From the IMG/VR virus record IMGVR_UViG_3300046777_000618, positions 1-31,594 of that record: DNA of 31,594 nt; one strand, 5' to 3'. A program made the translations under genes and the position numbers. Shown in pieces: positions 1,951 to 26,316 of the stretch (its first letter is position 1; every line of letters begins with the position of its first letter). The DNA comes from a virus. The notes under the pieces are model-generated. The model made no database searches. It saw only the letters and a program-made list of their open reading frames with translations, and had not been told where the DNA came from.

Positions 1951-4900
1951 ATGGCTTCAACGCATAAAAGCCTCCGCAGCGGCACCGCTAACAAGCGCCC
2001 GACGACCTCGATTGCGGACGGCCAGATTGCGCTGAACACCAATACCACCAGCCCTGGCCTGTTCTTCAAGGACAGCACTGGCGCAAGCATCATCAAAGTC
2101 GGCCCGGTCCATGTCGGCACGACTGCACCTAATGCCAGCCCTGCAGCCGGCGGCAGCAGCGGCAACAGCACTGGCGAGGTGTGGCTTGACACCAGCCTGA
2201 CCCCAGTCGGCGTCAAGATCTGGAACGGTAGCGCCTGGGTCAACGCAACCCCAATCGGCAGCACCACCGTCCAGGGTCTGCTGGAGCTTGCCACTGATGC
2301 CGAAACCCAGGCCGGCAGCGACACCGCCCGCGCTGTAACACCCGCCAGCCTGCAGTCCAAAGTCAGCGACAGCACCAGCACCACCAGCTCAACGACGATC
2401 GCCAGCAGCACGGCGGTCAAGAGCGCCTACGACCTGGCCAATGCTGCGCTGCCCAAGTCCGGTGGCACCATCACCGGCAACCTGGAGATCGGCACCACCG
2501 GCAGCCTGAGCTTTGAAGGCGCAACGGCCGACGCGTTTGAGACCACGATTGCGGTCACGGATCCAACTGCTGACCGCACCATCACGCTGCCAGATGTGAC
2601 TGGCACCGTCGTCACCACCGGCGATACGGGCACCGTTACCAGCACCATGCTGCTGGATGGCACCATCGTCGATGGCGACATCAACGCATCGGCTGCCATT
2701 GCCCACAGCAAACTAGCCAACATCACCGCTGGATCGGTGCTGCTGGGCAACGCCAGCAACGTCCCTACTGCAACTGCACTGAGCGGCGACGTCACCATCA
2801 ACAGCAGCGGCGTGACGGCCATCAGCAGCGGCGTCATCGTTGATGCCGACATCAATGCCAGCGCTGCCATTGCCGACACCAAGCTGGCCACCATCGCCAC
2901 AGCCGACAAGGTGTCGCTGTCGGCGCTGAACATCGACGGTGGCACCGACATTGGCGCTGCCCTGGCTGATGCCGATCTGTTCATCGTTGACGACGGCGGC
3001 GCTGGCACCAACCGCAAAGCAGCCGCCACCCGCATCACTGACTACGCCTTTGGTAAGGTCAGCGGCGACATCACCATCGGCAGCACCGGCACTGCTGCCA
3101 TCAGCAGCGGCGTGATCGTCAACGCTGACGTTAACGCCTCAGCCGCCATCGCTGGCACCAAGATCAGCCCCGACTTCGGCAGCCAGACCGTGGCTACCAC
3201 CGGGCTTGTCAGCACTGGCACCGGCACCGCTGGCGCCCCGACCATCACCTTCACCGGCGACACCAACACCGGCATCTACAGCCCTGGTGCCGATCAAGTA
3301 GCCATCTCAACTAATGGGTCTGGCAGGCTGTTTGTGGACTCCAGTGGCCGTGTTGGGATTGGTGCCGCTCCTAGCGCTATATTTCACATTACTCAATCTG
3401 CAGCAGATGCAGTTGCACGCATTGATGGCGGGTCTTCTAATACTGCGTTTGTTGACTTTCGAATTGCTGGATCAAATAAGGCTTACGTCGGTCTAGGTGG
3501 CCTTACTGGAGGATCTAACAACGATCTAATTAACTATAACAGTAGCGCTGGGAATTGGATTGCCTACACCAATGGATCTGAGCGCATGCGCCTCACCTCC
3601 ACCGGTCTTTTAGGTCTGGGGACTAGTAGCCCTAACGTAGGGTTAACTATTTCCAGCCAGGCTGTTTCTACTGGCGCTGTAATTCCAAATGCTGATATTG
3701 CTTTCCCCTCTGCATACGCAAACGGGTTTTTCCGTGCTCTCGGTAATTACAACCAAGGCGCTGGAGTGGGCGGAACGATTCAACTCGGAGGAAAATCCTA
3801 CACGGACTCTGGTTTTGTTGGTGCATTTCTAATCAGTGCAGTGTCGGGTGGCAACGCGACAGACGCATTGACGTTCTCTACACAGACATCATTTAATAAC
3901 GTCGTGTCTGAACGGATGCGTCTTGATTCGTCAGGGCGTTTAGGGATTGGCACTACTAGCCCTAGCACAAAATTAGACGTAACAGGTGGAAGTATTGGCA
4001 TCAATAATACCAACGGCGTTACTGGAGAGATAGTTTTCAACCAATCAGGTCAAGAGGCTTGGTTTATAGGATCTCAAGCAAGTTCTCGCGATCTTACAAT
4101 TCGACAATTTAATGGTGGTCTATACAGCGAACGCGCCCGCATCGACAGCTCGGGACGCCTGTTAGTTGGCACGTCTACGAGTCAATCCCCTTTTAACACT
4201 CCACTACAGGTAATTTCTAGCGGCGCTCAAGCATTATTTGCACGCAAAGCTGATAATTCCTTTGGACCTGTTTGCTATTTTGCTAAATACAGAGGAACAG
4301 ATACTACTGTTTTGCAAAATAATGATGACTTAGGAAGTATTCAGTTTTGGGGCGCTGATAGCTCTTCGGTAACACTTGGCGCGTCTATTGGCGCTTTTGT
4401 AGACGGCACCCCCGGCGCTAACGATATGCCGGGCAGGTTAGTGTTCTCCACTACCGCCGACGGAGCGAGCAGCCCAACAGAGCGGATGAGGATTACAAAT
4501 GCAGGTGGTGTCAGGCTTCCGGATGTCTATAACGCAACAATTGCCTTAAGCGCCAACGTATTTATTGACACTGACGGCACACTTAAGCGTGCAACGTCTT
4601 CGATCAAGTACAAAACAGATGTTGAAACCCTGCAAGACTCTTACGCAGATGCAATCTTAAATTGCCGACCTGTTTGGTATCGCTCGACAAATGAAAGCGA
4701 TAACCCGACTTGGGGATGGTGGGGCTTTATTGCAGAAGAGGTTGCTGAAATTGATCCACGCTTAGTGCAGTGGAAAACAGTTGAGCAGGTTATTAACGAA
4801 GATGGAAGCCGCGACACGGTTCCCCTTGAGACACCCGAGCCGGAAAACGTCGCTTACGACCGCTTCGTGCCGCACCTCCTGAACCTGATTAAGCGACAGG

Positions 4901-7474: not shown

Positions 7475-7494
7475 AGACATCACCGTGTCTTTTT
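7475..7494 (+). terminator. Possible rho-independent terminator of the + strand late block
   Basis: AGACA (7475-7479) and TGTCT (7486-7490) can pair around a 6-base loop, followed directly by a T run ending at 7494. It lies 55 bases after the HNH stop, where the + strand block converges on the - strand sigma gene, and overlaps the last codons of that gene. The stem is only 5 bp, so this is weak. Confidence 0.35.
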
Positions 7495-8382
7495 ATTGTC
7501 GGTTCCAAGGTGTGTGTCCGCCAGTGGATTGCGCATCAGCATACGGAGGCGCATGATGCCACGTTGCTGGATGCTGTGCAGTCTGGTCTTGCTGATACCA
7601 GTCATGCGCTCTAACTCTGACCATGTCATTGGCTGACAAAGCAACCTAGCTTTAAGTACTGATTGCGTTGTCTCATCAAGGTATTTGGCAAAATAATCCA
7701 TCATCGTTTGAATATCCTGCCTAGTAGAGAAATCATCTTCGTCGTAAGTAGGATCTGCAATTGTATCGGCAATGGTGTTGCTTTCCGAGTCTGCAATGTG
7801 CTGGTCAAGGCTGGTAACGCGGTAGCTTTGGCGCAGCAGCATCGATAACTCTTGAGGGTCCATGTCTAGATGTTCCGCCACTTGATTAGTGCTGGGTGCT
7901 TGGCCCAGCTCATGGCCTAGGTCTTGGATGGTGCGGTTGACCTTATACAGCATCTCGTGTACACCAATCGGCAGCCTGATAATGGCGTCGTAGCTGATCA
8001 GTGCCCTAGTGATGCCCTGCCGGATCCACCAGTAGGCGTAGGTCGAGAACTTGTAGCCGCGGGTGGGGTCGAACAGGTCCACTGCACGCGATAGGCCGAT
8101 ATTCCCCTCTTGGATCAAGTCCATGAATTCAAGCGTCTTGTTCTGGCGCTTGTCATACTTGCGGGCAATATGCACGACCAGTTGCAGGTTGGACTGAATA
8201 AACCGTTGCCGTGCACGTTCACCGCTACGCACTTCGCGTTGTTCATCTTTTGTTAATAGCCTGTTAAGTTGCTGCAGTTCCTTGAGTCTTGCGACACGCC
8301 TGCCAAGTTGTATCTCTTGCTGCGGTGTCAACAGTGGATATTTGGCGATACTGTTGAGATAGTCTTTGATTGAGTCCGACAT
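7480..8382 (-). CDS. Phage-encoded sigma-70 family factor (group 2-like)
   Basis: A 300-residue protein. Residues 4-30 resemble region 1.2 (DYLNSIAKYPLLTPQQEIQL). Residues 55-130 are a full region 2 with the core-binding 'FIQSNLQLVVHIARKY', 'MDLIQEGNIGL' and the -10 recognition helix 'YKFSTYAYWWIRQGITRAL'. Residues 135-190 are region 3. Residues 236-285 are region 4, but the recognition helix (SKTRLHSIQQRGIMRLR) departs from the standard 'TRERIRQIEAKALRKLR', so -35 preference may differ. It would bind host core RNA polymerase and redirect it to phage promoters. It is the last gene of the leftward block, 205 bases after dCTP deaminase. The pattern is closest to cyanobacterial primary/group 2 sigma factors, which points to host origin. 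Confidence 0.92.
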   Translation of the reverse strand: MSDSIKDYLNSIAKYPLLTPQQEIQLGRRVARLKELQQLNRLLTKDEQREVRSGERARQRFIQSNLQLVVHIARKYDKRQNKTLEFMDLIQEGNIGLSRAVDLFDPTRGYKFSTYAYWWIRQGITRALISYDAIIRLPIGVHEMLYKVNRTIQDLGHELGQAPSTNQVAEHLDMDPQELSMLLRQSYRVTSLDQHIADSESNTIADTIADPTYDEDDFSTRQDIQTMMDYFAKYLDETTQSVLKARLLCQPMTWSELERMTGISKTRLHSIQQRGIMRLRMLMRNPLADTHLGTDNKKTR

Positions 8383-10250: not shown

Positions 10251-10584
10251 CGATTTGCTCCAATGCGCGGCGGACAACGTTGGCAACATCTGCTGACAAA
10301 CGATCATCCGCGACAGCGGTATCAATAGTTAATAGCGCCTGCTCCTTCAAGCTCGGCGGCTTGGGGCGGCGAGCGGCGCGGAGCCTTCTGTGCGTGTTGG
10401 ATTCGCACAGTGCTTCATCCAATAGCCACCCACAGCACGCCTCCAGCTCCATATCGGCGCCCCATTGGGCGGCGCGGTTGGCGATGTGCAATTCGTAAAG
10501 CCAATCGCGTTCGTCGTAGCATTTTTCTGAAGCCCACTGCTCTACCAGTTCGCGAGGTGGGGTGATGGAGTTCTGGTCGGTCAT
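10243..10584 (-). CDS. Conserved hypothetical protein (ELEACCGWL motif)
   Basis: A 113-residue protein starting MTDQNSITPPRELVEQW. It has a 'WGADMELEACCGWL' segment in the middle and a helical C-terminus (ADVANVVRRALEQIDD). The combination 'PP.ELV.QW ... AA.WGAD.ELEACC.WL' is familiar from small early proteins of cyanophages and other phages, without assigned function. The paired cysteines do not form a zinc-ribbon pattern. Its start overlaps the stop of the upstream RlpA-like gene by one base. Confidence 0.65.
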   Translation of the reverse strand: MTDQNSITPPRELVEQWASEKCYDERDWLYELHIANRAAQWGADMELEACCGWLLDEALCESNTHRRLRAARRPKPPSLKEQALLTIDTAVADDRLSADVANVVRRALEQIDD

Positions 10585-10913
10585 CAGTAAGCAATCTGAA
10601 CGGTGGCTACCCCATCGAGGGGAATGCGTAAGCGATAGGCCGCTCCTGCTGACAGATCGAGGCTGTTGCAGTCGCAGCGGTCAGTGACTGGCACCACCAG
10701 CGTGCGGCCTTGATGGCTGACACGCACGCGAGTGCCACAAGCGATCCAAGGATGCGCTGCTGATACGCCCCAGTGCTGATAGGTCTGGCCACAAGCTGTA
10801 GCCCGGCCGTGGTACCAACCGTCGTAGACGGTGGCGGTGACGGGTCTGTCGTGGTGCGCTAAGGCAGGGCCCTGCATAAGCAGGGCCACAGTGAGCAAAA
10901 TGCGTCGGATCAT
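10584..10913 (-). CDS. Exported RlpA-like double-psi beta-barrel protein
   Basis: A 109-residue protein with a Sec signal peptide: basic 'MIRR', hydrophobic 'ILLTVALLMQG', and likely cleavage after 'ALA' (residue 19). The mature part fits a double-psi beta-barrel as in RlpA: 'TATVYDGWYHGRATACG', 'ACGTRVRV' and 'PVTDRCDCNSLDLS', with D78 and D86 at positions like the catalytic/binding residues of that fold. Four cysteines (41, 59, 80, 82) could form disulphides outside the cytoplasm. RlpA proteins cut naked glycan strands or bind peptidoglycan. Here it sits in the leftward non-structural block, away from the lysis genes, so it may modify the host envelope during infection. Confidence 0.77.
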   Translation of the reverse strand: MIRRILLTVALLMQGPALAHHDRPVTATVYDGWYHGRATACGQTYQHWGVSAAHPWIACGTRVRVSHQGRTLVVPVTDRCDCNSLDLSAGAAYRLRIPLDGVATVQIAY

Positions 10914-11706: not shown

Positions 11707-12445
11707 GGTCGGCCTCCTTCTCAAGCATCTGCTGCAAGAGCTTGTCGTGTTGCTCTTGCGTCAGGTCGCCGTCCTCCAAGCGCTTTGCCATACGCGGTTG
11801 CAGATCCTCAAGGTCCTGCAGGCTCTTGGCTTTAGCGATGGCAGCAGCACCAGCGGTGAAGAACTTGCTGGTGTCTTTGGTCTTGACCGCAGGCAATGCC
11901 GGCGCTGCCTCGGTGGTGACAGTTACAGGCTCAGTGGCTTGGTCCATCTCGTCGGTGGTGTACACACCGGACATGTCCGCAGGGAATGCCTTACGCAGTG
12001 CCAGCGCCTCAGAGCATTTAGCGATCATCGCGGCAGGCATCTTGGCCCACAGCCCTTGGCCGGCGTTGTAGTCCGCAAAGCGGGCAACACCAACGAATGG
12101 ATGCTGGCTGCCTTTGCGCCAGATGGTGGTCTTGGCTGCAGCCGGTGGCTTGGATGACAGCCATACGTCAGCCCAGCCGCCCTCTTCGCCACACCACTCG
12201 GTATGGCTGCCGTCAAGTTGCCCAGTGCGCTCGGCAATGGCACGGAGTCCATCAATGCCGGCTTGGATGGTCATCTTGCCGCCACGCTTAATGGCGTAGA
12301 TCTGCTTGCTAAACGGATCTAGTCCAGTGCGCTGGCAGGCATAGGCAAATAGCCGCAACTCATCATTGGTGCAGCCCGGTGCAATGGTGCTGCTGATCAG
12401 TTGGACTTGGTCAGGAGTCCAGGTAGTGATTGAAACGCTGGTCAT
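11690..12445 (-). CDS. bet: Phage recombination protein Bet (RecT/Redbeta family)
   Basis: A 251-residue single-strand annealing protein. The N-terminal part has the family pattern '[48 protein letters not shown]' in order (roughly 24-75), then 'GVARFADYN', '[24 protein letters not shown]', which is the conserved core end. The C-terminal 80 residues are a variable, charged tail ([20 protein letters not shown]). It would anneal complementary ssDNA generated by the RecE-like exonuclease encoded just upstream, with which it shares one base at a TAATG junction. The length is close to lambda Bet (261). Confidence 0.9.
11713..11718 (-). promoter_or_regulatory. Strong ribosome binding site deciding a TTG start
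   Basis: AGGAGG on the minus strand, 6 bases before TTG 11706. It lies inside the 3' end of the annealase gene and fixes the start of the small helix-turn-helix gene. Confidence 0.65.
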
Positions 12446-13233
12446 TAGAAGGTCTCAGTTTCGATGGGATTTGTCGCCCACTTAGGCAGGCTGATGGTCT
12501 GAATGATCGTGTCGCCGTAGCCGGGCCATACGTCAACCGCATGACAGGCAGCGATCACGTCCATGCCATTGTCCCGCATGGTCCGCCCTAATGCAAGGGC
12601 TTCGGCGTCGAGTTCATACACCGCAACAGCATGCGGGTAAGTCTTCTCGACTGCGACGAACACAAACCGCTCAGCGCCGAACAGGCCAGCCAGATAGTGC
12701 GCCGCTTGCACGTGATAGCCGAAGGTAGCCACGCTGCGCGCAAATGCTTGCGGGCTGGCGTCGGTGGTGGTCTTGACGTCCACCACAGTGCTGCCATTGA
12801 GCCAATCAGGTCGGCACTTGCAGCGCATACCGGTTGCGGCGTCAGTCCACCAGAAGGACTGCTCGGCCTTGCCTTGCTTGAGCAATGCTGCTGCGGCTGG
12901 GTGCGCCTGCACTGCAGCGCTCATGCCCATAGCAAGCGCCATGTCGCTGCTGGTGACGGCTTCCATGCCCTGGGCGGCCATCCGCTCGGCTTGCTCTTTG
13001 CCGGCCTTGGTGTTGCGCGGTGCGCACACGCCGTAGCGGTTCAGCAGCTCCTCTGGTTCAAGGATGGCGCAATGGGCAAGGCTGCCCAGCTTCATCGCAG
13101 CGGTCGGCTCAACCGGCTTGCGGTTGGGGTCAACGTACCGGCTCCAGTAGTGGTAAGGCGATTGCATTACCGCTTTCAGATGACTGGCGCTGACGGCTGG
13201 GTCAGCGTGGTACTCCTCGTTTGTGATGGTCAT
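12445..13233 (-). CDS. RecE-like PD-(D/E)XK exonuclease
   Basis: A 262-residue protein; ATG 13233 is chosen because it gives the typical start '[20 protein letters not shown]'. Motifs are '[20 protein letters not shown]' (15-34), H54 in '[12 protein letters not shown]', D143 in 'CKCRPDW', and the D152-x-K154 core in '[12 protein letters not shown]', followed by 'YHVQAAHYL'. These match the RecE C-terminal nuclease family, which resects dsDNA 5' to 3'. It pairs with the Bet annealase downstream, the usual two-component phage recombinase. An additional 15 residues upstream in the same frame are less likely. Confidence 0.87.
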
Positions 13234-13418
13234 TTCTGCCTCAGTTGACGGTGGATCATGGTCTGTGGTCCGAAGCAATGCAGCAGTTGCGGAAATGCCT
13301 GCAGGAGGATTTGACGGTTGTTGGGGTCAGCAACCAGCCCTGCATCGGCAAGGCGTGAGATAAACCCGCCGCCGTGCTGCTTGGCGGTTTGGAATGTCCA
13401 GAAGTCGTCTGATGTCAT
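13230..13418 (-). CDS. Small conserved protein (DDFWTFQ)
   Basis: A 62-residue protein starting MTSDDFWTFQTAKQHGGGFI, followed by 'LADAGLVADPNNRQILLQAFPQLL' and a basic tail. It overlaps the exonuclease start by 4 bases. Proteins with the 'DDFW.F..AK.HGG.F...LA.AG..AD..N' pattern are frequent in cyanophage early regions. The sequence suggests a short helical protein without catalytic motif; function unknown. Confidence 0.6.
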   Translation of the reverse strand: MTSDDFWTFQTAKQHGGGFISRLADAGLVADPNNRQILLQAFPQLLHCFGPQTMIHRQLRQK

Positions 13419-13470: not shown

Positions 13471-13650
13471 CTATGCCAGTGCTAAGCGGACGCGGTAGCG
13501 GCTGATATGCATGTGCTCCGCAATGCGGCGCTGCGACCAGCCGTAGCCCCGCAATCGCTTGGCGCGTTGCTCAGTTGACTCCGTTGCCCACAGCAGCACC
13601 AGCAACGGCAGCAGCAACAGGGCAAGGATCAGGGTCAGTGTGGTTGTCAT
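13471..13650 (-). CDS. Membrane-anchored helix-turn-helix small protein
   Basis: A 59-residue frame (ATG 13650, TAG 13471-13473). Residues 4-22 are one hydrophobic helix (TLTLILALLLLPLLVLLWA). Residues 24-57 are charged and read as a helix-turn-helix: 'STEQRAKRLRGYGWSQRRIA' then 'EHMHISRYRVRLAL'. The order, anchor followed by a DNA-binding-like motif, is unusual, though similar short proteins occur in cyanophages. It could be a membrane-bound regulator or a protein that tethers DNA. It is preceded by one of the shared-sequence promoters at 13692-13720 and followed by a strong hairpin. Confidence 0.65.
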   Translation of the reverse strand: MTTTLTLILALLLLPLLVLLWATESTEQRAKRLRGYGWSQRRIAEHMHISRYRVRLALA

Positions 13651-13691
13651 GGGTGGGATTTGCAGTGCAGGCCGGTTGCCTGCGTGGTCAC

Positions 13692-13720
13692 ACTATACCA
13701 CCATGGTCTGCCGTGGTCAA
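13692..13720 (-). promoter_or_regulatory. Promoter, shared phage type (TTGACC-17-TATAGT)
   Basis: On the minus strand TTGACC (13715-13720) and TATAGT (13692-13697) are separated by 17 bases, with an extended -10 TGG just before the hexamer. The first 11 bases (TTGACCACGGC) are identical to those of the promoter at 22490-22518, and the spacer also shares ATG-x-TGG. It lies in the 91-base gap upstream of the membrane/HTH gene, about 40 bases before its ATG. A second copy of TGACCACG begins close to the predicted start point and could be an operator. Confidence 0.72.
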
Positions 13721-13741: not shown

Positions 13742-14146
13742 TCAGTCACGCACGGGTGTATCGGTTTTGTCGCAAACCAGAGCCCTTGCATCCTCAACTG
13801 ACCGCGCCACACCAGCGATGCCGCCTGCAGCCTGCACCGCATCAAGCCACTGCTGCTGCTCGGGGCGCAGCCTGCCGGTTGGGGTCTTGACCTCGATGGA
13901 GGTGAACACCGCCAGCCGTTGGCCGACCATGTCAGGAGTCACCGTCACCGTGCGCCAGCCGATCAGGTCAGCGCTGCCTTTGCATAGGCCGAACTGCACT
14001 GGGCGGCCGTTCTGGTCGCGCAGGGTGCCGGTGTTGTTGCGGAAGACCTTGGTGTCACCGTGGCTGATGGCTAGCCGGATCTCCTGCTGGATGCGCTGCT
14101 CGCTCAATTTTGCATTCCAGCATCTTGAGCAGCAATTCTGGTCCAT
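13742..14146 (-). CDS. VRR-NUC domain nuclease
   Basis: A 134-residue protein from ATG 14146. A further in-frame start at 14191 is rejected because its first codons lie in a transcription terminator. The VRR-NUC fold of the PD-(D/E)XK superfamily is read from 'SEQRIQQEIRLAI', 'VFRNNTG', 'GLCKGSADLIGW' (D60), 'FTSIEVKTPTGRLRPEQQQWLDAVQAAGG' (E85, K87, Q98) and 'AGVARSVEDA'. Such nucleases in phages act on branched or ssDNA-dsDNA junctions, fitting the recombination genes nearby. It lies downstream of the strong terminator at 14165-14185, so its transcription may rely on read-through. Confidence 0.85.
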   Translation of the reverse strand: MDQNCCSRCWNAKLSEQRIQQEIRLAISHGDTKVFRNNTGTLRDQNGRPVQFGLCKGSADLIGWRTVTVTPDMVGQRLAVFTSIEVKTPTGRLRPEQQQWLDAVQAAGGIAGVARSVEDARALVCDKTDTPVRD

Positions 14147-14164
14147 TGCTGCCTGGCTGACAAG

Positions 14165-14185
14165 AAAAAAGCCCCGAAGGGCTTT
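14165..14185 (-). terminator. Rho-independent terminator with UUCG loop
   Basis: On the minus strand AAAGCCC-TTCG-GGGCTTT forms a 7-bp stem with a UUCG-type tetraloop, followed by further Ts (total T run from the stem end to 14165). It begins 5 bases after the stop of the 65-residue gene at 14191. This is a textbook intrinsic terminator and would separate that gene from the VRR-NUC gene. Confidence 0.85.
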
Positions 14186-14190
14186 CATCA

Positions 14191-14388
14191 TCAGATTTGA
14201 TAGGCATTTTTGACATGATCTTTAATGATGGCAAGGCTTGTATCGATAATTGTCCCCCCGCCGCTTAGCGCGTTGGTGGTCCATCCGTAATGAAGATGGC
14301 AGCACCAACCGTCGGGCTCTTTCTCAAGTGATTGGATGCCAGGCATAGCGAGAATGGCTTGAGCTGTTTTAGGAAGTTTGCTGGTCAC
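14191..14388 (-). CDS. Small protein with its own promoter and terminator
   Basis: A 65-residue protein from GTG 14388 (VTSKLPKTAQAILAMPGIQS), with the conserved-looking 'LEKEPDGWCCHLHYGWTTNALSGGGTIID' middle and a C-terminal helix. A longer frame to ATG 14508 is open but overlaps the PP-loop gene by 49 bases and crosses the promoter at 14416-14444, so the short form is preferred; a TTG at 14415 is another possibility. The sequence suggests a small alpha/beta domain with unknown function. It is a separate transcription unit: promoter immediately upstream, terminator 5 bases after the stop. Such a stand-alone small unit inside an operon is typical of inserted 'moron'-like genes. Confidence 0.65.
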   Translation of the reverse strand: MTSKLPKTAQAILAMPGIQSLEKEPDGWCCHLHYGWTTNALSGGGTIIDTSLAIIKDHVKNAYQI

Positions 14389-14415: not shown

Positions 14416-14444
14416 ATCATAGCACCCTGTGCCGCCTTGCGCAA
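14416..14444 (-). promoter_or_regulatory. Promoter (TTGCGC-17-TATGAT)
   Basis: On the minus strand TTGCGC (14439-14444) and TATGAT (14416-14421) have a 17-base spacer. It matches the promoter at 22490-22518 at 20 of 29 positions, including GGCGGCA in the spacer. It lies between the stop of the PP-loop gene and the GTG start at 14388, with a short leader. Confidence 0.68.
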
Positions 14445-14459
14445 CCTTGTAACATTTAT

Positions 14460-15263
14460 TTACGTCATGCAGTAGCCTGATTCGCAACCATCTTGTTCGT
14501 CTATCCATTCCGGGAATAGGCCAAGCTGGTCGGGGATGGCAATGTTCAAGGGCTGACCGCTTTTTGCGCCAGCACCAGATACAAAAACCATGTCCCGACC
14601 TTGATCAATTCGTTTTTCATTCAAACGTTTTTCAAGGATTACAGCTTTATCAAACAATTCTGGTCGCTCGCGTTTCATTGTGATCCACTGATCAGTTGTT
14701 TTATAAGGACAAAACCAACAACTGGATTTAGGTGGCTGTGGTATACCGGCTTCTTTTGCAATGCGTAAACAGTCATTGCGACTATATCCAAGTTCAATTA
14801 ATGGATAAGCGCTTGTGTATCCGTCGTCTTCACGACTTGGCGTGGCGCGATGAGGTTCATCTGTGCTGATACCCTTGCCAAGAATGCAGCCAGGTGCATT
14901 GGCCTTAATCCATTTAGCGATTGGTTTGATTTTAAAATGCAATGTGCAATTTCGCAAGCCAGGAGCGCCGCTAGCCATGCGCACTGGTATGTCAATCGAG
15001 CGCAAGTGACTCATCTGCTGCAAATACAAATCAACAGGCGTGCCATCACGCCTTCTTTTTTGGACATCAACCCACTCAATACCATGTTTTGCGGCGTATG
15101 GCTTTAAAACTTGTGAAATGTAACGAATAGTATCCGGTGATTCGGCTTCATCGCCAACATTTGCAAAAACAAAAGTGCGGTAAGGAATGAAGCCCTGTGC
15201 TGCAAGCACTAGGCAGGCGGTTGATTGCACGCCACCACCGCAAGAAAAGATGTGTTTAGTCAT
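14460..15263 (-). CDS. PP-loop ATPase, PAPS reductase/adenine nucleotide hydrolase-like
   Basis: A 267-residue protein opening with a modified PP-loop, 'SCGGGVQSTA' (residues 7-16), then 'FVFANVGDEAESPDTIRYI', a substrate region with 'LRNCTLHFKIKPIAKWI', and a cysteine motif 'PKSSCWFCPYKTTDQW'. This order fits the PAPS reductase/DndC-like branch of the alpha-hydrolase superfamily, which activates a substrate by adenylation. Which substrate it uses is not readable; sulphur metabolism, nucleobase modification or DNA modification are all possible. It is more AT-rich than its neighbours, suggesting recent acquisition. It overlaps the helicase stop by 4 bases and is followed by the stand-alone small gene. 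Confidence 0.8.
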   Translation of the reverse strand: MTKHIFSCGGGVQSTACLVLAAQGFIPYRTFVFANVGDEAESPDTIRYISQVLKPYAAKHGIEWVDVQKRRRDGTPVDLYLQQMSHLRSIDIPVRMASGAPGLRNCTLHFKIKPIAKWIKANAPGCILGKGISTDEPHRATPSREDDGYTSAYPLIELGYSRNDCLRIAKEAGIPQPPKSSCWFCPYKTTDQWITMKRERPELFDKAVILEKRLNEKRIDQGRDMVFVSGAGAKSGQPLNIAIPDQLGLFPEWIDEQDGCESGYCMT

Positions 15264-17028: not shown

Positions 17029-19067
17029 GTAGCGACCTGTTAGCGCAGCTGATGAAGCTGCCACGCGACTGGTCCTATGTGCCAGTTGATGGCGAAAAAC
17101 GGCCATACATCAAAGATTGGCAAGATGGCCACATCACTCGCGCTCAGCTGGGCAATGAGCTGAAGTCCGGCCGTGCCAAGGCAATTGGCGTCTGCTGCGG
17201 CACCCTTAGCGGTGGCTTGCTGTTCGTTGACCACGATGGCAAATCCGCGTCCGGGCTTTTTGACGACTGGGGCATCCCGGTCAGCTCGTTGCCGCCATCC
17301 TGGACCGTAACCAGCGGCCGCGACGGGCGGTTTCAGATCATCTACCAAGTGCCCCAGCACTACTGGGCAGACATCCGCACCCGCAAATACAAGACCGGCG
17401 TCACCGATAGCGAAGGGAAGCCAGAGCAGGTTGAGCTGCGCTGGGATGGCTGCCAGTCCGTCGTTGCCGGGGCGCACCCGCTCACGTCTGGCTATAGCTG
17501 GGTGCTAGGACGCTCACCGGCAGACCTGAATATTGCGGAGGCACCTGCCGACCTGATAGCACGCATGCTGCGGCAACCCGTGCAGGCGCCATTGCCGTTG
17601 GTGACCGCTGCCGGCAGTGACGACACAGCGCGGGCGCGGTCATATCTCGAAGCACTGCAACCCAGCCGCGCTGATGAATATGACCAGTGGCTTGAAGTGG
17701 GTATGGCGCTGCACAGCGTTGATGATGCCTTACTGGCTGACTGGATCAATTGGTCAGCCCAGTCCTCCAAGTTCAAGCCCGGTGACTGCGAACACAAATG
17801 GCGCGGGTTCAAGTCCGGCGGTGGCATCACCCTTGGCACCCTTGGTCAACTGGCCAAGCAAGACGGCTGGCACGGGCGGCAGCAACTAGAGCCTGTCCGG
17901 CGTGAGCGGCCTTCAAGCAAGCAGCCGCCGTCAGCGGTGAACCCGCAATTGCAGCCCATGAACGCTGCTGAGCTGCTAAACCTGCTGCGGCACGGTGACA
18001 GCAGCTACCGCTACAACACCTTCACCCAGCGCATCGAGGTAGACGGCGCTCCCATTGAAGGCGCCGAGCGGTTTTACCTCACCCTGGCCGAGATGGGTTA
18101 CAAGGTCTCAAAAGAGGTAGCCCTGGACTGCATTGTGCAGGTAGCCAATGAGTCACCGTATGACCCTGTTGTCGAGTACCTTGACCGCGTTGCCGCCACA
18201 GTTGCTCCCGCTTACATCGAAGCCCTGGCTACCGGCTACCTGCGCCCTGGTGACACGCCCGGCACCATCTACGACGAAATGCTCAAGCGCACCCTGATTG
18301 GTGCTGTCGCCCGTGCGTATCACCCTGGCTGCAAGCACGACACAGCATGCGTAATCATGGGTGACCAGGGCGCATACAAGTCATCGTTTTGGGCGTGCCT
18401 TGGCCATGACTTTTTTAGCGATGCCTTAGGTGACATCAGCAGCAAAGACGACCTGATGGTTTTGCACAGGTCGTGGATTATGGAGTGGGCAGAGCTTGAC
18501 CATGTGACCAATCGCAAGCATGCAGGACAGGTCAAGGCGTTTCTATCGCAGGCAGTTGATATGTTTCGCGTGCCGTATGGCAAGGCCACTGAGGCATTCC
18601 CAAGGCGCGGCATTATTGTCGGCACAACTAACCGCACGACCGGCTTTTTGGTGGACGAAACCGGCAACCGCCGGTTCTGGGTCATACCCACCACCAAAAC
18701 GCAGGCGGACCAGATTGACACCGCCGCGCTATTACTGGAGCGCGATGCAATATGGTCTGCTGCTGTTGCTGCATATCGCGCTGGTGAGACAAGTAGGCTG
18801 CCAATGCAGTACGAGGTGAAACTATCCGAGGAGAATGAATCCTATGTGGTTGATAACCCTTGGCAGGCTGAAATTGAGGACTGGTTGCGTAGGCATGGCG
18901 AGATTGATTTGACCACTGAGAAGTTGCTTACTGAGGCCATTAAGAAGCCCGTAGAACGGCAGACCAAGGCGGACCAGATGCAGGTTGCGGACGTGCTTAA
19001 GCGGCTCGGGTACAAGCGGTACCGCAGCGGCAAAGGGTCAAGCAGGGCATACGTCTACCGAAAGTAG
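17025..19067 (+). CDS. Primase-helicase: prim-pol-like N-terminus plus VapE-type ATPase
   Basis: A 680-residue multidomain replication protein. Residues 1-185 resemble the bifunctional primase-polymerase domain: 'WSYVPVDGEKRPYIKDWQDG', 'AIGVCCGTLSGGLLFVDHDG' with D69/D71 as the likely metal ligands, 'TSGRDGRFQIIY'. Residues about 200-282 form a PriCT-like linker ('DEYDQWLEVGMALH'). Residues about 390-600 form a VapE-type helicase ATPase with Walker A 'GDQGAYKSS' (446-454), Walker B-like 'SWIMEWAELD' and 'IIVGTTNRTTGFLVDETGNRRFW'. The C-terminus is a winged-helix-like region. It would prime and unwind at the phage origin. The repeat-rich non-coding segment starts right at its stop codon, as expected for an initiator next to its origin. 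Confidence 0.83.
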   Translation: MSSDLLAQLMKLPRDWSYVPVDGEKRPYIKDWQDGHITRAQLGNELKSGRAKAIGVCCGTLSGGLLFVDHDGKSASGLFDDWGIPVSSLPPSWTVTSGRDGRFQIIYQVPQHYWADIRTRKYKTGVTDSEGKPEQVELRWDGCQSVVAGAHPLTSGYSWVLGRSPADLNIAEAPADLIARMLRQPVQAPLPLVTAAGSDDTARARSYLEALQPSRADEYDQWLEVGMALHSVDDALLADWINWSAQSSKFKPGDCEHKWRGFKSGGGITLGTLGQLAKQDGWHGRQQLEPVRRERPSSKQPPSAVNPQLQPMNAAELLNLLRHGDSSYRYNTFTQRIEVDGAPIEGAERFYLTLAEMGYKVSKEVALDCIVQVANESPYDPVVEYLDRVAATVAPAYIEALATGYLRPGDTPGTIYDEMLKRTLIGAVARAYHPGCKHDTACVIMGDQGAYKSSFWACLGHDFFSDALGDISSKDDLMVLHRSWIMEWAELDHVTNRKHAGQVKAFLSQAVDMFRVPYGKATEAFPRRGIIVGTTNRTTGFLVDETGNRRFWVIPTTKTQADQIDTAALLLERDAIWSAAVAAYRAGETSRLPMQYEVKLSEENESYVVDNPWQAEIEDWLRRHGEIDLTTEKLLTEAIKKPVERQTKADQMQVADVLKRLGYKRYRSGKGSSRAYVYRK

Positions 19068-22489: not shown

Positions 22490-22518
22490 TTGACCACGGC
22501 GGCAGATGCTGGTATCTT
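22490..22518 (+). promoter_or_regulatory. Promoter, shared phage type (TTGACC-17-TATCTT)
   Basis: TTGACC (22490-22495) and TATCTT (22513-22518) are spaced by 17 bases, with extended TGG before the -10. The first 11 bases are the same as at 13692-13720 on the other strand. It lies right after the large terminase stop and ahead of the small membrane protein and portal, so it probably drives the head genes. Confidence 0.72.
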
Positions 22519-22558
22519 TCGCTCACGGCCAACCGGCCGTCCTCTTACCATCCCAACC

Positions 22559-22690
22559 ATGACCACCAACCCCTGGATCAACCGCTTTGCAGCCCTCGCG
22601 CTGCTGTTCATGATGTATGGCGTCGGCGTCAGCGTCGGTCGTGATCATGCGTACAGTCACCCCGCATGCCATCAAGGACTGAAGCCGTAA
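22559..22690 (+). CDS. Very small membrane protein
   Basis: A 43-residue frame (ATG 22559, TAA 22688-22690): MTTNPWINRFAALALLFMMY, then 'GVGVSVGRDHAYSHPACHQG'. One membrane helix (about 9-27) with a short polar tail. It is the first gene after the promoter at 22490-22518. Function unknown; similar tiny membrane proteins often sit between terminase and portal in cyanophages. Confidence 0.5.
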   Translation: MTTNPWINRFAALALLFMMYGVGVSVGRDHAYSHPACHQGLKP

Positions 22691-22719
22691 ACTAACAACA
22701 TTGTCAGCAGCTAGCGGTC

Positions 22720-24165
22720 GTGTATAGCGGATATTCGTTTTACGACCGGCCGCTAGCGCAGCGCACCGTTTCTAGGGTCAATGACCCCAACACCGCTTGG
22801 CACGCGCAAGAGCCGCATTGGGTCCTGATTGAGGACCTGTTGCAGGGCACCTACGGCATGCGCAAAAAGCATCGCCGTTACCTGCCGCAAGAGCCACGCG
22901 AGCTAGACGAGTCCTATGACAACCGCCTAGCTCGTAGCGTCTGCCCGCCGTACTACATGCGCCTCGAACGCATGCTGGCTGGCATGCTCACGCGTAAACC
23001 AGTCAGGCTGGATGACACCGCCGATGCCATCCGTGAACAACTGTTTGATGTAGACCTGCAAGGTAATGACCTCAACGTCTGGACCTATGAAACAACCCGC
23101 AAAATGGTTCGTTATGGCCATGTTGGTACATTGGTGGATGCACCAGCTAATGGGGGTCGACCCTATTGGGTGACCTACACGCCTAGGCAGATCCTTGGCT
23201 GGCGCACTGAGACCCAGGAAGGCCGGCAGGTGCTGACGCAGTTGCGGCTAGCGGAAGTGGTCACGGTGCCAGACGGTGAGTTTGGCGAAAAGGCCGTCGA
23301 GCAGATCCGGGTGCTGACGCCTGGCGAGTACCGCATCCATCGCAAGCAGGACAGCGGTGAGTTCACCGTCGTCGATGAAGGCCGCACTAGCCTCAGCGAG
23401 ATCCCGTTCACCATTGCCTACGCGCAACGGCATGGCTTCATGGAATCACGCCCGCCGCTGGAGGACATCGCAGAGCTGAACCTAAAGACTTATCAAGTGC
23501 AGTCGGACCTTGACAACCAACTGCACATTTCAGCAGTGCCGATGCTAGCGTTTTATGGGTTCCCGTCAGCAGCCGAAGAGGTATCAGCTGGACCTGGTGA
23601 AGCGATTGCATTTCCTACCGAGGGTCGTGCCGAGTACATCGAACCAGCAGGTCGCAGCTTCGAGGCGCAGTTTCGCCGGCTTGAGCAGCTTGCGTTGCAG
23701 ATCAACGAGCTAGGCCTATCGGCAGTGCTAGGCCAGAAGCTGAGCGCTGAGACCGCTGAGGCAAAGCGCATTGACCGCAGCCAAGGCGACAGCACCATGA
23801 TGGTGATCGCCCAAAACATGCAGGACATGATCGACAACTGCCTGCAATGGCACGCCACCTATCTGGGCAATGCCACCGCTGCCGGTAGCGCTTACGTCAA
23901 CCGCGACTTCCTTGGTGCACGCCTTGAGCCGCAGGACATCCAAGCACTGCTAGCGTTGTACACCGCCGGCACCATCAGCCAAGAGACGCTGTTGCGTGAG
24001 CTTGCCGAAGGCGATGTGCTGGGCGATAACTTTGATGTAGACGAAGAGCTGGAGGCCACATCCAATGCGGGGCTTGATCTACCGTCTGCTGGACAAACTG
24101 ACAGACTGGTTAGTGGATCTGATGATCTGGATGGAGCCGAAGAAACCCAGACAGCAGGAACTTGA
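22720..24165 (+). CDS. Portal protein, DUF4055-type
   Basis: A 481-residue protein with GTG start 22720. The segments 'PHWVLIEDLLQGTYGMRKK', 'RLARSVCPPYYMRLERMLAG', 'TRKMVRYGHVGTLVDAPANG', 'IPFTIAYAQRHGFMESRPPL', 'DLDNQLHISAVPMLAFYG' and 'SAETAEAKRIDRSQGDSTMM' in order follow the DUF4055 family, which I take to be the portal of this group of phages. It would form the ring at the head vertex through which DNA is packed. Position after terminase and before MuF supports this. Its last 101 bases overlap the next gene in another frame; the overlapping end is a low-complexity acidic tail. Confidence 0.82.
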   Translation: MYSGYSFYDRPLAQRTVSRVNDPNTAWHAQEPHWVLIEDLLQGTYGMRKKHRRYLPQEPRELDESYDNRLARSVCPPYYMRLERMLAGMLTRKPVRLDDTADAIREQLFDVDLQGNDLNVWTYETTRKMVRYGHVGTLVDAPANGGRPYWVTYTPRQILGWRTETQEGRQVLTQLRLAEVVTVPDGEFGEKAVEQIRVLTPGEYRIHRKQDSGEFTVVDEGRTSLSEIPFTIAYAQRHGFMESRPPLEDIAELNLKTYQVQSDLDNQLHISAVPMLAFYGFPSAAEEVSAGPGEAIAFPTEGRAEYIEPAGRSFEAQFRRLEQLALQINELGLSAVLGQKLSAETAEAKRIDRSQGDSTMMVIAQNMQDMIDNCLQWHATYLGNATAAGSAYVNRDFLGARLEPQDIQALLALYTAGTISQETLLRELAEGDVLGDNFDVDEELEATSNAGLDLPSAGQTDRLVSGSDDLDGAEETQTAGT

Positions 24166-25849: not shown

Positions 25850-25886
25850 AGCTGGCAAAGCCCGTAAACCTAAAGGTAAAAAGTGA
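25731..25886 (+). pseudogene. DUF6496-like small basic gene interrupted by an in-frame TAA
   Basis: The frame starts ATG 25731 (MAADKKIGKVMGE), meets TAA at 25770-25772, and goes on in the same frame with 'KRGTLQSGKGPKVKSRKQAI' and 'AIALSEAGKARKPKGKK' to TGA 25884-25886. The two halves together match a very conserved small phage protein (pattern 'K..KVM.E[F/Y]K.GTL.SG.G.KV.SRKQAIAIALSEA'), where the TAA stands at the Phe/Tyr position. A single base change from TAC/TAT explains it. TAA, TAG and TGA are all used as normal stops elsewhere, so a changed code is unlikely. It could be a mutated gene, a sequencing error or a read-through site. Confidence 0.65.
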
Positions 25887-26044
25887 TGGCTAAAAAACCT
25901 GGACTTTATGCCAACATCCACGCTAAACGCAAGCGCATCGAAGCTGGCAGCAAAGAGCGAATGGCGCGCAAGGGGGAAGCCGGCAGACCTACTGCTGCTG
26001 CATTTAAGGCTGCAGCCAAGACCGCTAAGAAACCTAAAAAATGA
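25886..26044 (+). CDS. Small basic conserved protein (KKPGLYANIHAK)
   Basis: A 52-residue, very basic protein (ATG 25886 in a TGATG junction with the previous frame; TGA 26042-26044). It reads MAKKPGLYANIHAKRKRIEA, 'GSKERMARKGEAGRPTAAAF', 'KAAAKTAKKPKK'. The 'PGL[YW]ANIHAKR.RI..GS.E.MR..G..G.PT..AF..AA.TA' pattern is common in phages and is usually next to a DUF6496 gene. Role unknown; high charge suggests binding to DNA within or near the capsid. Confidence 0.75.
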   Translation: MAKKPGLYANIHAKRKRIEAGSKERMARKGEAGRPTAAAFKAAAKTAKKPKK

Positions 26045-26316
26045 TCACCTATCGCGGCGAGCAGTTTGAGGGTTACAACAAACCCAAGCGCACGCCAAAT
26101 CATCCCAAGAAATCTCATGCGGTGCTTGCCAAAGACGGCAACACCGTGAAACTTATTCGTTTCGGTCAACAGGGCGTATCAGGCTCACCGCCACAAAAAG
26201 GAGAATCAGCAGCAGACAAAGCCAGAAGGGCATCGTTCAAAGCGCGTCACGCTGACAATATCGCTAAAAGTAAGTTAAGTGCAGCCTTCTGGGCGGATAA
26301 GGCCAAGTGGAGCTAG
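26041..26316 (+). CDS. Conserved small basic protein
   Basis: A 91-residue protein overlapping the preceding stop by 4 bases. It reads MITYRGEQFEGYNKPKRTPN, 'HPKKSHAVLAKDGNTVKLIR', 'FGQQGVSGSPPQKGESAADK', and ends with 'LSAAFWADKAKW'. The 'FxGYNKPKRTP.HP.KSH.VLAK.G..VK.IRFGQQGV.GSP' sequence is highly conserved in phage head regions, though without known function. It groups with the two small basic genes before it. No transmembrane segment. Confidence 0.75.
   Translation: MITYRGEQFEGYNKPKRTPNHPKKSHAVLAKDGNTVKLIRFGQQGVSGSPPQKGESAADKARRASFKARHADNIAKSKLSAAFWADKAKWS

Follow-up and report, generated by a model that had tools for sequence, protein, structure and literature searches.

Why should three promoters in one phage genome share sequence well beyond their -35 and -10 hexamers, and which factor reads them? 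The question arises from an IMG/VR virus record of 31,594 bases, IMGVR_UViG_3300046777_000618 (this whole stretch is called the window below), in which a first-pass annotation had noticed three promoter-like sites and proposed a phage-specific family with a dedicated recogniser, possibly the phage sigma factor or a regulator. The observation was confirmed and proved stronger than claimed, and the interpretation was half right. There is good support for a phage-specific promoter family in which the spacer is constrained, and the 10-bp direct repeat within the core points to a dedicated regulator, but the phage sigma factor is disfavoured as the recogniser. We consider it probable, at roughly 0.6, that all three sites represent one phage-specific header, in which a sigma-70-type promoter is fused to an operator for a regulator and placed ahead of swappable small accessory genes.

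The three sites belong to a phage-specific promoter family

All three sites combine a TTG-type hexamer, a 17-nt spacer and a TAT-type hexamer at the positions and on the strands first reported (Table 1). Site 3 matches site 2 at 20 of 29 bases, as had been claimed, and site 1 matches sites 2 and 3 at 22 and 19 of 29, respectively; the best unrelated 29-mer of the window reaches 18 matches to site 1 and 19 to site 2. The shared ATG-x-TGG that had been pointed out is present, but part of it is an ordinary extended -10 (TGn). The unexpected shared part is ACGGC together with a second A-x-GG, 10 bp further along.

To describe the family we used a two-block matrix built from 35 nonredundant training instances, mostly from relatives and with site 3 excluded, and a comparison set of 29 records made up of the window, 22 related IMG/VR contigs (the relatives) and six isolate phages. 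The core consists of TTGACC, a conserved spacer and an extended -10 (TG) at a spacing of 16 or 17, so that the -35 and -10 hexamers are separated as in sigma-70-type promoters (16-18 nt). At 12 bits or more the matrix matched 52 times, against 0 in a reversed-sequence control. Rather than falling in coding sequence as often as in gaps, 37 of the 52 matches lay in gaps, which make up 10.1% of the sampled sequence; gene calls in the relatives came from a simple codon-usage script, not a standard gene caller. At least 20 bits were reached by 45 matches, including 37 in gaps, and the 7 between 12 and 20 bits, all of them coding, were taken as chance. Within the window the next-best match after the three sites scores 14.5 bits and lies in coding sequence, and the three sites are the only strong members of the family there.

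The exact string TTGACCACGGC occurs 29 times in 20 of 28 records and not at all in the reversed control; it is missing from the relatives G005 and G007 and from all six isolate phages. A site of at least 20 bits is present in 21 of the 22 relatives, only G007 being without any. An exact search of IMG/VR with the whole motif matched one contig, because the spacing and the -10 vary, and a homology-based collection was therefore needed. We also queried 2.9 million viral contigs with a degenerate 22-mer pattern that contains no -10, which returned 115 stretches. The sites examined in detail, likewise 115, come from 114 loci (L334-L447), with the loci of a narrower scan included and stretches coinciding with earlier loci left out. 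A [T/C]AnnnT hexamer resembling a -10 follows at 16 or 17 nt in 114 of these 115 sites, and no site falls within a sequence homologous to a window protein. One locus, L433, is a probable chance match.

No comparable signal was found in the cellular genomes searched. In 8 host-type genomes the exact TTGACCACGGC gave 56 matches against 43 in the control, no excess; of 251 genomes in the family to which a Cyanobium genome belongs, 3 contained the long form when up to 2 mismatches were allowed (all with 2 mismatches) and 2 contained its reversed control; and the exact form with a 16-nt spacer had no match in 84,980 bacterial and archaeal species genomes. An Rfam scan at the gathering threshold gave no match. 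We found no description of the motif among the titles and abstract openings of the open-licence literature, and it is mentioned neither in the KBS2A genome note (PMC3751600) nor in the excerpts of the S-LBS1 paper (PMC6157547) that we consulted.

A direct repeat covers the -35 element and spacer

Comparison of the motif with itself at offsets of 4 to 14 (21 reduced instances) revealed a single strong periodicity: at offset 10 the profile score is 17.3, with the next at 5.4, and the self-identity is 0.53, with the next at 0.35. The repeat unit, approximately tTGACCAyGG, occurs twice in tandem over the -35 and the spacer, and some relatives carry perfect tandem copies. Two such half-sites, spaced by a turn of the helix across the -35 and spacer, would suit a regulator that binds in tandem, and a 10-bp direct repeat inside the core points to a dedicated DNA-binding protein.

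In two relatives a pair of family promoters stands about 200 nt apart (L228, G018 17,900-18,250; L202, G004 17,150-17,450). The upstream promoter of each pair is a near-perfect or perfect tandem repeat, with no convincing ORF (open reading frame) before the second promoter, and its product is possibly a small RNA.

The phage sigma factor is unlikely to be the recogniser

The first-pass annotation had named the phage sigma-70 family factor as a candidate recogniser, which would make the long conserved stretch simply its promoter. Its distribution is compatible with this. The gene is present in the window and in all 22 relatives searched, and the proteins of motif-bearing relatives are 57-89% identical to that of the window; G007, which has no motif, has a sigma factor only 39% identical, and KBS-S-2A, S-CBS1 and S-CBS3, without the exact motif, have ones at about 40%. 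Region 2 is conserved and host-like, so the protein could use the -10. The -35 tells against it. In an alignment of 17 motif-bearing relatives and the window (the sigma proteins of G006, G014, G019 and G020 were left out), the -35-reading helix of region 4.2 varies (SKTRLHSIQ, SKSKLQDLE, SKTALYDIY, SRARMCEIQ, KRATMSDIQ) under a constant TTGACC, and helix and hexamer are not conserved together as they should be at a promoter specific to this factor. Region 4.2 of the window protein is degenerate and far from the canonical form retained in KBS-S-2A and S-CBS1; the assignment of the residues that touch DNA is based on Escherichia coli. Moreover, sigma factors do not usually read DNA through a conserved spacer.

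The isolate S-H1 also bears on this point. No sigma-70 region 2 was found in it by a search that detects the Synechococcus control, yet it carries TTGCAC-AGGGCTGAGCCTGGTT-CATACT with a spacer of 16, together with a hairpin and, at 3486, an annotated start. This diverged unit scores 9.6 bits, and since one control match comes near that level we regard it as supporting rather than decisive. S-CBS3, in which a sigma gene is present, has a similar unit of 6.5 bits, and P-HS2 and MED4-117 have neither a sigma gene nor a motif unit. With the -35 helix variable and TTGACC constant, we disfavour the phage sigma factor as sole reader, and think it unlikely that it is the dedicated recogniser. The variation in region 4.2 and the presence of a diverged unit in S-H1 without the gene favour a host-type sigma factor acting with a separate regulator.

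Could that regulator be supplied by the host? A transcription factor of 10-bp direct repeats, such as the OmpR-type RpaB with its HLR1 site, would have the same period as the core. The half-sites are dissimilar, TTGACCAyGG against GTTACAWW, and the core does not contain the two (G/T)TTACA(T/A)(T/A) repeats 2 nt apart that define HLR1. Nor is the core enriched in the host genomes described above, although host operators may be too varied for such patterns to find. We judge a host reader of this type to be quite improbable.

Similarity between the regions ends at the edges of the core

In 18 genomes (17 relatives and the window) the sites of the two genome regions in which the family occurs, described below, could be compared within one genome. 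Over the 22-nt core they are 78% identical on average, against 27-31% upstream and 29% downstream. The core is therefore sharply bounded, and with its flanks near chance the spacer is, on this comparison, conserved by function and not through recent copying. Three relatives, G013, G014 and G016, have a -35 hexamer degraded to CGCACC but retain the spacer and -10. That these are ordinary host promoters, alike only through recent duplication of one promoter within the phage, would agree with their restriction to one clade, the few copies per genome and the sequence common to some leaders, but the near-chance flanks and the spacer retained beside a degraded -35 already disfavour it, and we consider it very improbable.

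Leaders are enriched in hairpins of differing sequence

In most units the -10 is followed by a short hairpin near the expected transcript start and then by a start codon that no obvious Shine-Dalgarno sequence precedes. A 'TTGACAGGGGTAATGGAATTGG' family (pattern matched in 16 loci), taken by its position as coding, was removed before leaders and ORFs were counted, which kept 72 of 80 records. Thirty nonredundant leaders of 119 gave a mean folding z of -1.46 (combined -8.0), compared with -0.22 for 167 control upstream regions. A hairpin of at least 5 bp is present in 22 of the 30, against 8.9 +/- 2.4 in shuffles (maximum 16), so that over the set there is a clear excess. There are 16 distinct pairs of hairpin arms, and arms swapped between leaders pair in 22 of 448 combinations. 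Such a hairpin may protect the mRNA.

The core heads different small ORFs in two genome regions

The earlier reading had overlooked that the promoters occupy two fixed regions and that the small ORFs behind them are interchangeable. All 45 matches of at least 20 bits fall into these regions, with 1-3 copies of the core per genome. Region I lies between helicase/VRR-NUC and the ExoVIII/RecT operon and has a site in 21 of the 22 relatives, as well as sites 1 and 3 of the window. Region II lies before the portal gene, normally after the terminase, and has a site in 17 of the 22; it includes site 2, which sits between the terminase stop (22487) and portal. The relatives without a region II match are G007, G008, G009, G021 and G022, among which G007, G021 and G022 are short contigs.

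The ORFs behind the core turn over. We counted 98 distinct ones directly downstream, in 37 BLAST clusters, some of which may reflect wrong starts, and 3 clusters were found in both regions (6 and 6, 1 and 4, and 2 and 2 occurrences). The commonest encodes the TM-HTH protein found behind site 1, with a Pfam-level match to Sigma70_r4/HTH_23 at E about 0.004, below the cut-off. A longer version of the ORF behind site 3, to 14508, would cross its promoter. Family scans used 10 representatives each of the 98 ORFs. For these, PADLOC gave no match better than E 0.034, NCBIfam only weak matches below the cut-off, to the TM-HTH protein, and Pfam only sub-threshold matches; PHROGs gave one match, at 3e-6, to a family of unknown function, plus weak ones. 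A core in fixed places before different small genes resembles a standard switch behind which accessory genes can be exchanged.

The terminase-portal junction is variable in length, from 2 to 2460 nt over 70 distinct junctions. We rejected the short junctions L035, L037, L038 and L046 as empty sites from before an insertion; they look like deletion remnants of a small ORF's tail and hence prove no insertion. The core might instead be mainly a recombination linker for the exchange of small genes, with its likeness to a promoter secondary, as the 37 clusters behind one core, the 3 shared between regions and the variable junction could suggest; but 22 nt is short for homologous recombination and a linker would not need the correctly spaced -10 kept in 114 of 115 sites, which makes this most improbable.

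In S-CBS3 (L169, 26142, minus strand) the annotated coding sequence 25863-26129 would begin inside the promoter-like core, and an in-frame ATG about 54 nt downstream suits the cassette layout better.

A proposed header for accessory genes

We propose that the header would consist of a sigma-70-type promoter (TTGACC, 16 or 17 nt, extended -10) whose -35 and spacer form the tandem 10-bp direct repeat, usually followed by a 5' leader hairpin. RNA polymerase carrying a host-type sigma factor would start transcription here, and a regulator that the phage either encodes or recruits would bind the repeat and tune the promoter or shut it. Transcription would cover whichever small accessory ORF adjoins and, where no terminator stops it, continue into the conserved operon, with the hairpin stabilising the message. 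The small ORFs themselves may be host-takeover or perhaps anti-defence genes. The TM-HTH protein is a natural candidate for the regulator.

Several points weigh against this proposal. It is the repeat alone that suggests a regulator, since TTGACC with a good -10 would make an acceptable sigma-70 promoter in any case. Homologues of the TM-HTH protein occur in 17 of the 22 relatives and are missing from the motif-bearing G003, G015, G020 and G022, for which reason we rejected it as sole reader. No hairpin of at least 5 bp is found in 8 of the 30 leaders, and the leader of site 3 of the window does not fold stably (z +0.70). Terminators were found behind only a few cassettes with a simple search rule of our own, and none of the tested ORFs had an anti-defence or other clear family match. 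In addition, the relatives share descent, so counts over them are not independent events.

A more far-reaching version would be an exchange platform in cyanophages, in which a fixed promoter, operator and hairpin in two regions capture almost any small ORF into one regulon, probably of early anti-defence or takeover genes, with a phage regulator recognising the 10-bp repeat. The phage sigma factor might take part as well; its -35-reading part having degenerated, it would depend on that regulator. We put this forward tentatively and regard it as rather doubtful.

Comparison with known systems

In acr-aca operons variable acr genes and a small helix-turn-helix repressor share one promoter, and known Aca operators are inverted repeats. 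Region I is similar in part, with a variable small ORF and then a small helix-turn-helix gene under a conserved promoter. It differs in that the core is a direct repeat and not an inverted one, that the helix-turn-helix protein is hydrophobic at its N-terminus and 4 of the 21 motif-bearing relatives lack it, and that no Acr match was obtained. Phage morons are single accessory genes with their own promoter and terminator. They share with our cassettes the pairing of promoter and small ORF, and site 3 in the window also has a terminator-like hairpin, but here the promoter is common to unrelated ORFs, terminators were mostly not found and members may read into conserved operons. At lambda CII and T4 MotA promoters an activator box lies around -35/-30, and CII binds direct repeats that recur every 10 bp; in the core the repeat extends over both the -35 and the spacer, and scans of window genes identified no homologue of CII or MotA.

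Cluster K mycobacteriophages carry repeated phage-specific elements, SAS and ESAS, just upstream of many start codons, for which an operator or promoter role is proposed (PMC3203893). SAS adjoins the start codon, with ESAS as a 17-bp inverted repeat beside it (PMC3203893), whereas the element described here is a promoter core with a 10-bp direct repeat tens of nucleotides upstream; it neither sits at the start codon nor has such inverted symmetry.

A closer parallel comes from archaeal viruses, in which conserved regulatory sequences with a strong promoter precede unrelated small early genes, several of them proved to be anti-defence (Bhoobalan-Chitty et al. 2024, PMC11065993). In both systems the same promoter sequence, highly conserved beyond the core promoter, stands before many small, unrelated, uncharacterised genes of one virus group, and a small helix-turn-helix regulator gene is itself under it. 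The archaeal promoters are of the TATA/BRE type and precede scattered single genes, and ours are of the bacterial sigma-70 type and confined to two fixed regions; the direct repeat and leader hairpin are peculiar to the latter. Anti-defence function has been proved for some of the archaeal genes (PMC11065993) and is a possibility for those of the cyanophage cassettes. If our proposal is correct, it would provide a bacterial-virus counterpart to the promoter-based discovery of archaeal anti-defence genes. The 22-nt core could then serve as bait for accessory, possibly anti-defence, genes in a large and nearly uncultured group of cyanophages, and the regulation of cyanosiphovirus transcription would become directly testable.

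Genome context of the window

Table 1. Positions of the header elements and neighbouring genes in the window
Feature	Position	Strand	Remarks
Site 1 promoter core, TTGACC-ACGGCAGACCATGGTGG-TATAGT	13692..13720	-	Extended -10; 17-nt spacer; matrix 42.5 bits
Site 1 direct-repeat halves (10 bp each)	13711-13720 and 13701-13710	-	
Site 1 predicted 5' leader hairpin, GCAGGC(AACCG)GCCTGC	13667..13683	-	-11.5 kcal/mol, z -2.37
59-aa ORF directly downstream of site 1 (TM-HTH)	13471..13650	-	Hydrophobic N-terminus and weak helix-turn-helix match
Site 2 promoter core, TTGACC-ACGGCGGCAGATGCTGG-TATCTT	22490..22518	+	17-nt spacer; matrix 35.6 bits
Site 2 direct-repeat halves	22490-22499 and 22500-22509	+	
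Site 2 predicted 5' leader hairpin, ACGGCC(AACC)GGCCGT	22525..22540	+	-10.6 kcal/mol, z -3.95
43-aa ORF directly downstream of site 2	22559..22690	+	Hydrophobic segment; homologues at same region
Site 3 promoter core, TTGCGC-AAGGCGGCACAGGGTGC-TATGAT	14416..14444	-	17-nt spacer; matrix 29.2 bits
Site 3 direct-repeat halves	14435-14444 and 14425-14434	-	
65-aa ORF directly downstream of site 3	14191..14388	-	GTG start; no family match
Intrinsic-terminator-like hairpin directly after site 3 ORF	14167..14186	-	z -3.46
Exonuclease VIII gene	12445..13278	-	Conserved operon downstream of region I
VRR-NUC nuclease gene	13742..14191	-	Upstream landmark of region I
Portal gene	22720..24165	+	Downstream landmark of region II; predicted GTG start at 22720
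Phage sigma-70 family factor	7480..8382	-	Recogniser candidate of the first-pass annotation

The portal protein of the window shares 77-80% identity with its counterparts in the Synechococcus siphoviruses KBS-S-2A and S-H1 and 60% with those of Prochlorococcus phages. Since Synechococcus and Prochlorococcus are the hosts of the nearest isolates, this virus, too, probably infects a picocyanobacterium. The leftward arm of the genome carries a helicase, a PAPS-reductase-like gene, VRR-NUC, exonuclease VIII, RecT, SSB, DUF3310, dCTP deaminase and the sigma-70 factor; the rightward arm carries a VapE-type primase, beta clamp, terminase, portal and head genes.

The predicted portal start codon lies within a very stable inverted repeat at 22703-22765 (plus strand; -29.9 kcal/mol, z -3.81), and a similar repeat is found in relatives, for example in G005 near 35889. 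The repeat could gate translation of portal or read-through from site 2. The PAPS-reductase-like gene (phrog_424; 14460-15263, minus strand) lies between the helicase and site 3, and the terminase-portal junction of L044 holds part of a similar gene. A DPBB/lytic-transglycolase-like gene, at 10584-10913 (minus strand) in the window, is located in region I beside the header in other relatives, another sign of gene movement. Finally, the motif and sigma sites of G001 (41,137 nt) recur in G010 (58,956 nt) displaced by 10,170 (loci L212/L213/L250 against L196/L197), so the G010 record may be longer than one genome length.
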